A stretch of DNA of 64,000 bases from Pontibacter sp. E15-1. GTDB taxonomy: Bacteria; Bacteroidota; Bacteroidia; Cytophagales; Hymenobacteraceae. A model generated the notes under the pieces. It was not told where the DNA came from, ran no database searches, and was given only the letters and a program-made list of their open reading frames with translations. The stretch spans positions 1-64,000 of the forward strand of contig NZ_JAKVIR010000033.1 in NCBI RefSeq assembly GCF_022601975.1, read 5' to 3'. A program made the translations under genes and the position numbers. Shown piece after piece: positions 45,603 to 48,255 of the stretch (positions are counted from its first letter, which is position 1; every line of letters begins with the position of its first letter).

Positions 45603-45953
45603 ATGGAGCACATCAGGTTATACATAGAATACACTGCCCGGGGTATAGAGGCAGTCGGGGTGCTCATCATCTCTATCGGGGCCGCCATAGCGCTTTTCAA
45701 GTTCGTTTTCCCTGGAATTCAATCAAAGGAAAGGTCATACAAACAGTTGCGGCTGGATCTAGGGAAGGCCATTTTGCTGGGGCTGGAGATTTTGGTGGCA
45801 GCCGATATCATCGCCACCGTCGTGACAGAGCCCACGCTTGATCGGGTACTGACACTGGCCCTGATCGTGCTGATCAGAACATTCCTGAGCATCTCGCTGC
45901 AGGTTGAGTTGGAAGGCAAGTTCCCGTGGCAACCCGCCAAAGACACTGAGTAG
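45603..45953 (+). CDS. DUF1622 family membrane protein
   Basis: A 116-residue protein with three hydrophobic segments (about residues 16-37, 53-70 and 78-98), matching the DUF1622 layout with YKQLRLDLGKAILLGLEILVAADIIATV as its best-conserved part. The family has no established function. It stands 182 nt upstream of the fused channel gene in the same direction, after a terminator, so the two could form a transcription unit. Inner membrane; the acidic C-terminal tail should be cytoplasmic or periplasmic depending on topology. Confidence 0.82.
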   Translation: MEHIRLYIEYTARGIEAVGVLIISIGAAIALFKFVFPGIQSKERSYKQLRLDLGKAILLGLEILVAADIIATVVTEPTLDRVLTLALIVLIRTFLSISLQVELEGKFPWQPAKDTE

Positions 45954-46134: not shown

Positions 46135-48255
46135 ATGCTTCGAAAGACGGTATATAAACAGGTTTTTGTAGTGCTGATAGGGCTCCTGATAGTGGGTGCC
46201 ATCCTTTACAGGCATCTATACCAAAGGGGCTTTCTGGAAGGCTACTATACTGTGGGCGTGCTCATCAATTACAACGAGCTCAAGGGGAATGACCTGGAGG
46301 TGATGCAAAACATCATTCAGAAAAGAGTTACCATTCTAAACCAACAGGGTGGAATTCTGGGGAAGGAAGTGCGTGTGAAGTACCTCGACGACGGAGGCGA
46401 CCCTGAAATTGCGAAGAAGGTAGTGGCCGAAACCATCGAGGACCCTACCCTGATCGGCTATGTGGGGAGTTGGAGCTCAACCAGGTCGAAAGCGGTGGCA
46501 GAGTTGGTGGGGCCAGCCCGCATTCCGTTTATCGGGGGGTATGCCCTGACACCCCTTTTCGAGGAGTACCCGAACATGTTCACGGCCGAAAAGGGGATTA
46601 ACGACGTTGCAGCGCGCTTTGAGAAATTCCTGGAAGACAGGTTCAGACGCACCGCCTTTATAGGTATGACAGGCGATTTATACTCCGCGGCGCTTTTGCA
46701 GAAGCTTTGTGACCAGCAACTCAAAGACACTACGGCACATGTGGTGATGGAAAAATGGCTCCCGGAAGGGCACCTCTTTGACCAAGGGGGAGTTGACTCG
46801 CTGGCGGCAACACTCATAGCCACCAAGGCAGACTTTTTGCTGCTGTCGTTCCGGAGCGGAATTACCTCGACCTTTATCCCGTTGCTCAGACAAGCCGGCG
46901 TTCAGATTCCCATTTTCACCGCGCTCGGCGACCTCGGCCAGGTGATCGGACAATCAGAGGGGAACAATCTCGGGGAGCTTTACGACCTGAACGTGATCGG
47001 TATACCTGGCACGTATAACCTGCGGCTGCAGGAGCAAATCCCATCTTTTATACAGGACGTGACCCCCGGAGAAACCCTGGAGTTCCAGTTGAGCTTCAGT
47101 GCCCGCATCGCAGACAGCATTGGGTTGCTGGCCGCCGCCGCGGCTATCGGCGAAACTGCTGACACTTCGGAGAACGCTACCAAAGAATTAATCATCAGCG
47201 GCCTGCAGAAATACGTGGGGGGAGGCCTGATTTACCGGGGCTGGTTCGACGACTGGTTTTTTAACGCAGACAGGGCCATTGCCGGAGACGTACTCCTGGC
47301 CTGGAAGCCCGCTTTGCTCACCCGGCATATACTGGCACCCGATCAGTTCATCTGGATAAACGATACGCTGCGACAGGTGCCCGTTTTTTTCACGCATATG
47401 GATATGGTGCAGTTAAACCAGGTAAATGACCCTGAAGGCAGCTTCTACGCTACGTTTTATCTGGAAATCACCTCCATAATTCCTGTTGACATTGCGCGGA
47501 TAGACTTTACGAACGCTGCCAGAAGCGAGACAAGCCACGAATACCTGCTGGATATCAAACCGATTAGCTTTAGAAAAATACCGGGCAAAAAACCGCTCTA
47601 CAACTATATGTTTCGGGTATCGGGTAAGTTCCTGTTTGAGCCGGACCTGAAAAACTATCCGTTCGACAAGCAAAAGTTCCCCATCCAGCTTCAGCCGGCC
47701 AATGCCACAAATCCTTTTTTTATCCAGCCGTCCACCACCGCCCTAAACGACTCCTTATTTGAGACAGATGGCTGGCACTACCGCAATCAGTATGTGGGGT
47801 ATGCCCACGACATCATCAGTTACTATAACTCTTTTAATGACCAGCAACGAAACCAGCCCTTTTACAAGTTCAGTTATACCTATGTCATGTCCAGGGCCAG
47901 GGTCGACTTTTTCCTGAAAGTGCTTACCCCGCTTCTGGTTATTCTGGTGGTAACCTATTTTTCGGTGTTCATCCCCTTAAGCAGGGTCGAAACGCTGGAG
48001 GCCATACAGGTCACTTCGCTACTCGCATCAATCGCCCTGTACTTTTCCGCCTACAAACCAGAGATGGAGCACGCCACAATCTCCGATAAAATCTTCATCT
48101 TCACCTACATCATGATTACCTCACTGATCGGGACTTCCATCCTACAGTTTGTTAAACGGAAAAAATACGATACCGAGAGCAAGATTGCCAAAATCTACCA
48201 GCGCTATATATACCCAGCCATAATTTTGATCATCACGCTGTTTCTTGTTCTATAA
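46135..48255 (+). CDS. Periplasmic-binding-protein domain fused to a pentameric ligand-gated ion channel
   Basis: A 706-residue protein with an unusual plan. Residues 10-27 form a membrane anchor or signal. Residues about 37-405 resemble a type 1 (Leu/Ile/Val-BP-like) periplasmic binding domain: VGVLINYNELKGNDLEVMQN, LNQQGGILGKEVRVKYLDDG, YVGSWSSTRSKAV, PFIGGYALTP. Residues about 415-585 look like the beta-rich extracellular domain of Cys-loop/Pro-loop receptors, with the signature DLKNYPFDKQKFPIQL (504-519). Four membrane helices follow: M1 592-614, M2 618-640, M3 650-673 and M4 689-706, and the short M3-M4 loop and M2 position match prokaryotic channels such as GLIC. It should open in response to a ligand of either domain. 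Channel identity is by motif and topology, not structure. Confidence 0.82.
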   Translation: MLRKTVYKQVFVVLIGLLIVGAILYRHLYQRGFLEGYYTVGVLINYNELKGNDLEVMQNIIQKRVTILNQQGGILGKEVRVKYLDDGGDPEIAKKVVAETIEDPTLIGYVGSWSSTRSKAVAELVGPARIPFIGGYALTPLFEEYPNMFTAEKGINDVAARFEKFLEDRFRRTAFIGMTGDLYSAALLQKLCDQQLKDTTAHVVMEKWLPEGHLFDQGGVDSLAATLIATKADFLLLSFRSGITSTFIPLLRQAGVQIPIFTALGDLGQVIGQSEGNNLGELYDLNVIGIPGTYNLRLQEQIPSFIQDVTPGETLEFQLSFSARIADSIGLLAAAAAIGETADTSENATKELIISGLQKYVGGGLIYRGWFDDWFFNADRAIAGDVLLAWKPALLTRHILAPDQFIWINDTLRQVPVFFTHMDMVQLNQVNDPEGSFYATFYLEITSIIPVDIARIDFTNAARSETSHEYLLDIKPISFRKIPGKKPLYNYMFRVSGKFLFEPDLKNYPFDKQKFPIQLQPANATNPFFIQPSTTALNDSLFETDGWHYRNQYVGYAHDIISYYNSFNDQQRNQPFYKFSYTYVMSRARVDFFLKVLTPLLVILVVTYFSVFIPLSRVETLEAIQVTSLLASIALYFSAYKPEMEHATISDKIFIFTYIMITSLIGTSILQFVKRKKYDTESKIAKIYQRYIYPAIILIITLFLVL

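Follow-up and report, generated by a model that had tools for sequence, protein, structure and literature searches.

Prokaryotic pentameric ligand-gated ion channels (pLGICs) serve as structural models for human receptors, and, to our knowledge, the natural stimuli of most of them have yet to be identified. A natural fusion of such a channel to a solute-binding domain provides a ready hypothesis for the ligand class of a prokaryotic pLGIC, as well as a direct route to the question of how a Cys-loop-type pore might be gated by a Venus-flytrap domain. The closest described systems match the protein analyzed here in one part or another. ELIC and GLIC resemble its channel core, but both lack an N-terminal sensor domain. 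LivJ, LivK and the ligand domains of metabotropic glutamate receptors have the bilobal fold of its periplasmic binding protein (PBP) domain, which is here fused to a Cys-loop-type channel, whereas those proteins operate in the context of an ABC importer or a GPCR. In ionotropic glutamate receptors, the pore lies within a type-II PBP domain, unlike the pore considered here, which is that of a pLGIC with four transmembrane helices (4-TM) following a beta-sandwich.

DeCLIC resembles the present protein in that an N-terminal domain (NTD) has been added to a prokaryotic pLGIC, and a 2025 paper calls DeCLIC the only pLGIC with an NTD that is even partly characterized (PMC12664993). Its NTD is described there and in the available text of a 2022 paper (PMC9897478) as consisting of two jelly-roll lobes with Ca2+ sites and as affecting the gating kinetics, whereas the N-terminal half of the present protein is a type-I PBP (PBP-I) domain. 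Fusions of the latter kind, termed ART-LGIC, are reported in the accessible portion of Tasneem et al. 2004 (PMC549065) from Magnetospirillum magnetotacticum and Bradyrhizobium japonicum, with the PBP-I domain placed N-terminal to the ligand-binding domain (LBD) and the 4-TM core; the same text draws a parallel to NMDA and metabotropic receptors, proposes a chemotactic role for the PBP-fused channels, and suggests that the fused PBP domains may aid preliminary concentration or sensing. Our search of the open-access literature retrieved no experimental work on pLGICs of the PBP-fused kind, which does not prove that none exists.

The protein analyzed here is encoded by Pontibacter sp. E15-1 (Bacteroidota) within a stretch of 64,000 nucleotides (contig NZ_JAKVIR010000033.1, positions 1 to 64,000), hereafter the window. 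It has the same layout, an N-terminal PBP-I domain followed by a complete LBD and a 4-TM core, although it comes from a phylum other than that of the alphaproteobacterial fusions of Tasneem et al. An earlier note on this DNA had cautioned that multi-domain prokaryotic pLGICs might already be known, and rightly so: Tasneem et al. (PMC549065) described the PBP-I::pLGIC architecture, together with the likeness to PBP-I-bearing receptors of animals, as early as 2004. Hence the note's bacterial parallel to metazoan receptors is a recognized one, but it is not new. What is new here is a distinct, well-conserved branch of fused channels, the co-inheritance of its two halves, a linker deletion and an anchor helix, none of which we found in the accessible portions of PMC549065, of Jaiteh et al. 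2016 (PMC4795631; cited beside Tasneem et al. as earlier literature) or of the two DeCLIC papers (PMC12664993 and PMC9897478). On the strength of sequence comparison and structure modeling, the window protein is probably a PBP-I-fused pLGIC subunit that would form a homopentameric, cation-selective channel of the inner membrane, gated by a solute at the PBP domain.

Domain layout and homology of the fused protein

The gene and its parts are arranged as follows.

46135..48255, + strand: PBP-I::pLGIC fusion gene, complete, ATG start, 706 aa
46138..46221, + strand: N-terminal hydrophobic helix, residues 2-29, predicted uncleaved membrane anchor (AF2 helix; hydropathy of alignment A1)
46243..47319, + strand: type-I periplasmic binding protein domain, residues 37-395 (Pfam PF13458, profile versus PDB, Foldseek)
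47341..47895, + strand: pLGIC extracellular beta-sandwich domain (ECD), residues 403-587 (AF2, profile, Foldseek)
47644..47691, + strand: Pro-loop DLKNYPFDKQKFPIQL, residues 504-519 (alignment of 40 sequences)
47893..47895, + strand: pre-M1 arginine R587 (alignment of 40 sequences)
47899..47964, + strand: M1, residues 589-610, with kink proline P599 (AF2 and alignment)
47992..48048, + strand: M2 pore helix, residues 620-638 (AF2 and alignment)
48049..48078, + strand: M2-M3 linker region (alignment)
48079..48168, + strand: M3, residues 649-678 (AF2)
48181..48249, + strand: M4, residues 683-705 (AF2)

The single frame of 706 residues that the earlier note described is intact, with an ATG start and no internal stop or interruption along the open reading frame. 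In it, a type-I binding domain and a pLGIC core, both of them complete, are joined, as supported by Pfam, by comparison of hidden Markov models with the PDB and by the AF2 model. In this model, the Leu/Ile/Val-binding-protein-like domain ends at residue 395 rather than at about 405, as first estimated, and four helices follow the M1-M4 spacing of pLGICs, as proposed; the Pro-loop signature occupies exactly the residues originally assigned to it.

At the sequence level, Peripla_BP_6 (PF13458) matches residues 62-270 of the window protein with an E value of 6.1e-18. No other Pfam family scored above the cut-off in this protein, and the Neur_chan_LBD and Neur_chan_memb models gave no match, apparently because the family is too divergent for them; as a survey model, Neur_chan_LBD proved too insensitive, matching 2 of 296 genomes. 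The channel half is nevertheless recognizable. A phmmer search of the PDB with the window protein alone retrieved 6cdu ("chimeric alpha1GABAA receptor", which we take to be an ELIC chimera) over residues 483-701 (E 5.3e-9) and ELIC entries at about 1e-7. With a profile of 11 related cores, the 6cdu chain was matched at 2.4e-26 over nearly the whole core, ahead of ELIC entries (about 1e-23) and those of GLIC (about 1e-21). The corresponding profile for the PBP half, made from 14 binding domains of the clade delineated below, matched proteins of the Leu/Ile/Val-binding type, with 4mpt as the best (5.5e-13) and 4gnr at 1.2e-10.

Structural comparison led to the same assignment. The AF2 monomer model built from 40 sequences has a mean pLDDT of 88.9 and a pTM of 0.86, M2 and its ends being the weakest part (pLDDT blocks of 65-73); it supersedes a mediocre first model from 13 sequences (pLDDT 70.5), with which a PDB search yielded only PBP-type structures among the matches listed. 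In Foldseek searches of the PDB with the monomer model, the PBP half matched 4n0q_B (TMt 0.82), LivJ 4gnr (0.79) and mGluR1 1ewk_A (0.63), and the channel half matched the GLIC-GABAA chimera 5osb_C (0.73), ELIC 6ssp_D (0.68) and DeCLIC 9ftg_A (0.35). Thus, the N-terminal half has the bilobal PBP-I fold and is LivJ-like, and the C-terminal half, with a beta-sandwich ECD and four transmembrane helices in one chain, is ELIC/GLIC-like; the absence of a pLGIC match to the latter, which would have told against the fusion, was not what the profile and Foldseek searches found.

The N-terminal membrane anchor also finds support, as a prediction, in the AF2 helix and in a hydropathy peak, with a hydrophobic helix opening all 13 sequences of alignment A1. 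By eye, no signal-peptidase-like cleavage site is evident after this helix in the A1 sequences. In contrast, the alphaproteobacterial fused proteins compared here have N-termini that resemble cleavable signal peptides, and three proteins from other Bacteroidia (L074, L081 and L087) show a Cys after the hydrophobic stretch, as in lipoproteins (both by eye). Because the anchor is apparently uncleaved and only about eight residues separate it from the first strand, the PBP domain would be expected next to the channel, near the membrane, and not above it.

Recurrence, distribution and joint history of the two halves

The fusion recurs well beyond the window. The host genome encodes a second copy that is 52% identical to the window protein over residues 5-704; frames of 705-747 aa that align nearly along their full length occur in nine other Pontibacter genomes; and another genome of the same family, G050, carries a tandem pair of 720 and 722 aa. 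For the sequence L042, which lacks an ATG around the position where the start was expected, the frame taken was trimmed or ran from stop to stop. A search for the core in 99 related genomes gave matches in 21. Within the genus, host included, 13 of 50 genomes retain any trace of the channel: 10 encode one or more frames of no less than 705 aa, and in the other 3 the gene is damaged (split into pieces in G017, remnants in G012 and G003). G050 is the only one of 11 other genomes of the family with the channel, and 7 of 38 other genomes of the order have more distant core matches. The distribution across the genus is therefore patchy, and the gene is dispensable.

Across the class, a pLGIC-type core was detected in 34 of 395 genomes, and, apart from the two in the host, most of the corresponding frames span 323-409 aa, too short for an additional domain of PBP size; four frames of 699-795 aa all have weak Peripla_BP_6 matches below the Pfam cut-off. 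Among alphaproteobacteria, four PBP-I::pLGIC proteins, hereafter alpha1 (L062, L063, L066 and L071), were identified in four genomes that belong to the same order as Rhizobiales bacterium IMCC20636; they are 29-36% identical to the window protein and differ from it in their signal-peptide-like N-termini (by eye). A search of 385 alphaproteobacterial genomes with the core profile of the clade yielded no further strong member of this type and four weak matches, one of which is in the genome on which the search was centered. A second alphaproteobacterial group, alpha2 (L005 of IMCC20636 and its kin L059 and L060), is also PBP-fused, with the same domain order as the window protein.

In a core tree of 70 rows (minimum length 200 aa, repeats and L043 dropped), the Pontibacter-type proteins and alpha1 group together with support of 100/99, whereas alpha2 is placed separately, as is a second Bacteroidia group; the 44 unfused cores fall on one side of a branch supported at 88/85. 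The program warned of long branches in this tree, including the point where the Bacteroidia PBP group meets Pontibacter plus alpha1. The tree of binding domains, which includes eight stand-alone PBPs (matched by the fused-domain profile over at least 180 aa, drawn from 30 loci, several of which proved to be channel genes or other frames), recovered the Pontibacter-alpha1 grouping again at 100/99. Forcing the Pontibacter, alpha1 and alpha2 binding domains into one clade was not rejected (p-AU 0.0815), nor was forcing together all fused binding domains (p-AU 0.0782), so that, beyond the Pontibacter-alpha1 group, these tests favor neither a single origin of the fusion nor several.

A structural character marks the same clade. 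In alignment A3, which has 40 rows (16 from the clade, comprising 12 Pontibacter-type and 4 alpha1 sequences, and 24 others, holding only part of the unfused cores), and from which L043 (a near-copy of L041), L059 (its core matching that of L005 at 97% identity) and L075 (a relative of L074) were left out, the distance from E619 at -2' to D651 is 32 positions in 16/16 clade members, compared with 34 in 23 of the 24 others and 38 in the remaining one. Judging from this alignment, the Pontibacter-alpha1 clade has lost two residues of length in M2 or in the M2-M3 linker relative to the others, and alpha2 does not have this shortening. The M2-M3 linker is a coupling element in the pLGIC superfamily. 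Within A3, the shortening is evidence for the clade independent of the trees. Because the two halves fall into the same clade in both trees and the M2-M3 shortening is common to its members, the PBP and channel halves probably moved between phyla as one unit, in either direction.

Conserved residues, selection and possible ligand sites

The residues associated with gating are conserved almost without exception. The PFDxQ Pro-loop with its acidic residue and the basic residue ahead of M1, both characteristic of pLGICs, are present: P509, D511 and Q513 of the Pro-loop occur in 40/40 aligned sequences and F510 in 39/40, and the pre-M1 R587 and D651 are likewise found in all 40. In the window protein, E619 at -2' immediately precedes the M2 helix, which presents A2', T6', L9', A13' and F16'. 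The pLGIC pore pattern of M2 and the M1 proline are maintained across the clade, with the pore-facing E-2', T6', L9' and A13' in 16/16 members, A2' in 15/16 and P599 in 16/16. The pore-facing pattern of M2 is canonical, and residue rules link it to ion selectivity; by these rules, the pore residues of the clade would fit cation selectivity. The alpha2 rows have Pro at -2' instead of the Glu of the clade, as part of a Pro-Pro-Arg at -2' to 0', which suggests anion selectivity.

Both halves also appear to be under purifying selection in close relatives, according to our computation of dN/dS. Six pairs were run, three of which (L041/L043, L041/L044 and L040/L041) gave finite dS in every domain, with dS of 0.13-2.1, the upper end being near saturation; in these pairs, dN/dS was 0.07-0.09 for the PBP domain, 0.03-0.09 for the ECD, 0.035-0.09 for the transmembrane domain (TMD) and 0.09-0.38 for the anchor. 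In the other three pairs, including the window protein versus L037, its closest ortholog, saturation of dS affected at least two of the three domains PBP, ECD and TMD. These data bear on the notion that the protein is a relic, a once-useful channel now being lost from the genus, as the traces in 13 of 50 Pontibacter genomes, three of the 13 broken or reduced to remnants, might suggest. Yet 10 of those 13 genomes retain long open frames, dN/dS is well below 0.1 in PBP, ECD and TMD of the three measurable pairs, and the host itself keeps two divergent intact copies, which makes this a very improbable account. An artefactual frame uniting two adjacent genes has next to no probability: no frameshift or assembly join near residue 410, the event that would have undone the earlier interpretation, is in evidence, and such a join is ruled out by the paralog and by the 11 intact copies from other, independent genomes, all with the same fusion in the same order.

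A more serious alternative concerns where the stimulus acts. LivJ S79 anchors the ligand carboxylate, T102 binds both carboxylate and amine, and E226 binds the amine. S115, the equivalent of LivJ S79 by alignment to 4gnr, is present in 16/16 clade members, as is R117, two residues further on, which occurs in 0/7 rows of other fused groups. The position of LivJ T102 does not hold the canonical Thr in the Pontibacter-type rows, where it is Leu in 11/12 and Val in 1/12; the four alpha1 rows have R, T, R and L, and both aligned alpha2 rows have T. The replacement of this Thr by Leu or Val makes an amino-acid ligand uncertain. An acidic residue, D266, is found in 12/12 Pontibacter-type rows, but in the register of the alignment the 4gnr acid falls two positions before it. 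At the canonical interface, position 522, aligned to the loop-B aromatic of ELIC, is non-aromatic in the clade, but since it is aromatic in just 1/24 others, this loss does not distinguish the clade. An F or Y stands at position 524 in 0/16 clade rows versus 17/24 others, and at position 564 in 2/16 versus 18/24; position 577, which aligns with a loop-C aromatic of ELIC, has Tyr in 12/12 Pontibacter-type and 3/4 alpha1 rows, compared with 0/24 others. Although alignments across such distances are weak evidence for the roles of ligand-site residues, this pattern leans toward the binding domain as the solute sensor, with an altered interface site being possible. Two working ligand sites, as envisaged earlier, are thus no more than putative: by alignment, the interface-region aromatics have mostly been lost in the clade, and the PBP domain keeps the Ser without the Thr.

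Gating could instead occur at the canonical ECD interface, or by pH or Ca2+ in the manner of GLIC and DeCLIC, with the PBP domain only concentrating solute or tuning kinetics. Such an arrangement would resemble the preliminary concentration or sensing raised in the accessible text of Tasneem et al. (PMC549065), and it has a counterpart in the reported influence of the DeCLIC NTD on gating kinetics (PMC12664993 and PMC9897478); the Tyr at position 577 speaks for it as well. Against it stand the loss of aromatics at 524 and 564 and the strength of purifying selection on the PBP domain, which about equals that on the ECD in the measurable pairs. On balance, we consider gating at the interface or by pH or Ca2+ unlikely, though by no means negligible, and favor gating by solute at the PBP domain. 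In the host genome, PF13458 occurs in no more than three frames, those of the two channel genes and another of 582 aa, which points to use of this domain as a sensor and not for transport. Counting the channel genes, the family has 2 to 8 matches in the four alpha1 hosts and 19 in each of the two alpha2 hosts, and it is present in 10 of 14 control genomes.

Under the preferred reading, five identical subunits would assemble in the inner membrane around a cation-selective pore, each contributing a periplasmic Leu/Ile/Val-binding-protein-like domain that is tethered N-terminally by the anchor helix and joined C-terminally to the beta domain. A small solute, probably with a carboxylate, would shut the cleft of the binding domain, and cleft closure would pull on or release the beta domain; this movement may then be transmitted through the Pro-loop, the pre-M1 Arg and the shortened M2-M3 linker to alter pore opening. 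More speculatively, control of a Cys-loop-type channel might have shifted from the interface site to a tethered Venus-flytrap domain, with the linker retuning the coupling, the unit spreading between phyla and DUF1622 perhaps acting as a small membrane partner, a scenario that, taken as a whole, we regard as unlikely. The ortholog clade, its common linker deletion and the tandem pair are resources on offer for the study of such gating.

Genomic neighbourhood

The gene next to the channel in the window encodes a small protein.

45603..45953, + strand: DUF1622 small protein, possible partner (Pfam PF07784, 1.4e-24), 181 bp upstream of the channel gene

A DUF1622 gene lies directly upstream on the same strand at 8 of 15 Pontibacter-type loci, namely 7 of the 12 with an intact channel and that of the broken G017 copy. 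This arrangement, seen in two distinct genomic contexts, suggests that DUF1622 and the channel are linked functionally or at least physically. DUF1622 is more widespread than the channel, occurring in 35 of the 99 relatives. Among 30 DUF1622 loci, which represent 35 places, the DUF1622 protein of the window matched 25, of which 8 have an adjoining channel and 17 do not, which weakens the case for an obligate partner. The four alpha1 loci yielded no DUF1622-like gene, but two of them (L111 and L112) have little flanking sequence on one side or both, and a divergent copy could have escaped detection. CheW-type frames and one MCP-type frame of the host are located on a different contig, C18, distant from the window gene, and neither support nor exclude a chemotaxis output of the channel. 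The other neighbours in the window, identified through Pfam as LepB, DapB, an ArsC-like protein, UDG and ApaG, look like housekeeping genes.

DUF1622 neighbour and broken or remnant channel genes

Adjoining the gene for the PBP-I::pLGIC fusion channel is one encoding a small protein:

window 45603-45953, + strand: DUF1622 protein gene, directly upstream of the channel gene

When the neighborhoods of Pontibacter-type loci were compared, DUF1622 was found directly upstream of the channel at 8 of the 15 loci, in two genomic contexts; a survey of relatives showed that it is also common in places without an adjoining channel. In three genomes of the same genus, the channel gene is broken or persists as a remnant (L045 in G017, L048 in G012, and L049 in G003).

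Further sensor-fused channels and a possible host chemosensory locus

Additional loci were identified in the host (G000), a genome of the same family (G050), and a related genome (G074):

G000:C33:253803-255908 (L002, L053): diverged second PBP-I::pLGIC copy, on a contig other than that of the window gene
L047:7014-11349 (G050): tandem PBP-I::pLGIC gene pair, spacing ~65 bp
L052:6294-8426 (G074): highly divergent pLGIC-like core carrying a fused dCache domain
G000:C18:56279-60894: 1430-aa frame that includes an MCP signalling domain, lying close to two CheW-type matches

The second host copy has no DUF1622 gene directly upstream. The tandem pair possibly encodes a heteromeric channel, and the CheW/MCP cluster perhaps represents one chemosensory locus of the host. 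The dCache fusion shares its genome, G074, with L050, which is a weakly PBP-like fusion, and with the unfused channel L030.

Pore residues and viral fold matches

In the alignment, the alphaproteobacterial PBP-I::pLGIC rows of the alpha2 group, L005:4678-6924 (Rhizobiales bacterium IMCC20636) and L060, carry Pro at pore position -2', followed by Pro-Arg, a likeness to anion-selective receptors. Viral proteins in BFVD with fold matches to the AlphaFold2 monomer model of the window protein include A0A7S9SUV3, from Virus NIOZ-UU159, and A0A5J6VL22, from a Megaviridae environmental sample; one of these bears the name of a neurotransmitter-gated ion-channel ligand binding domain protein.
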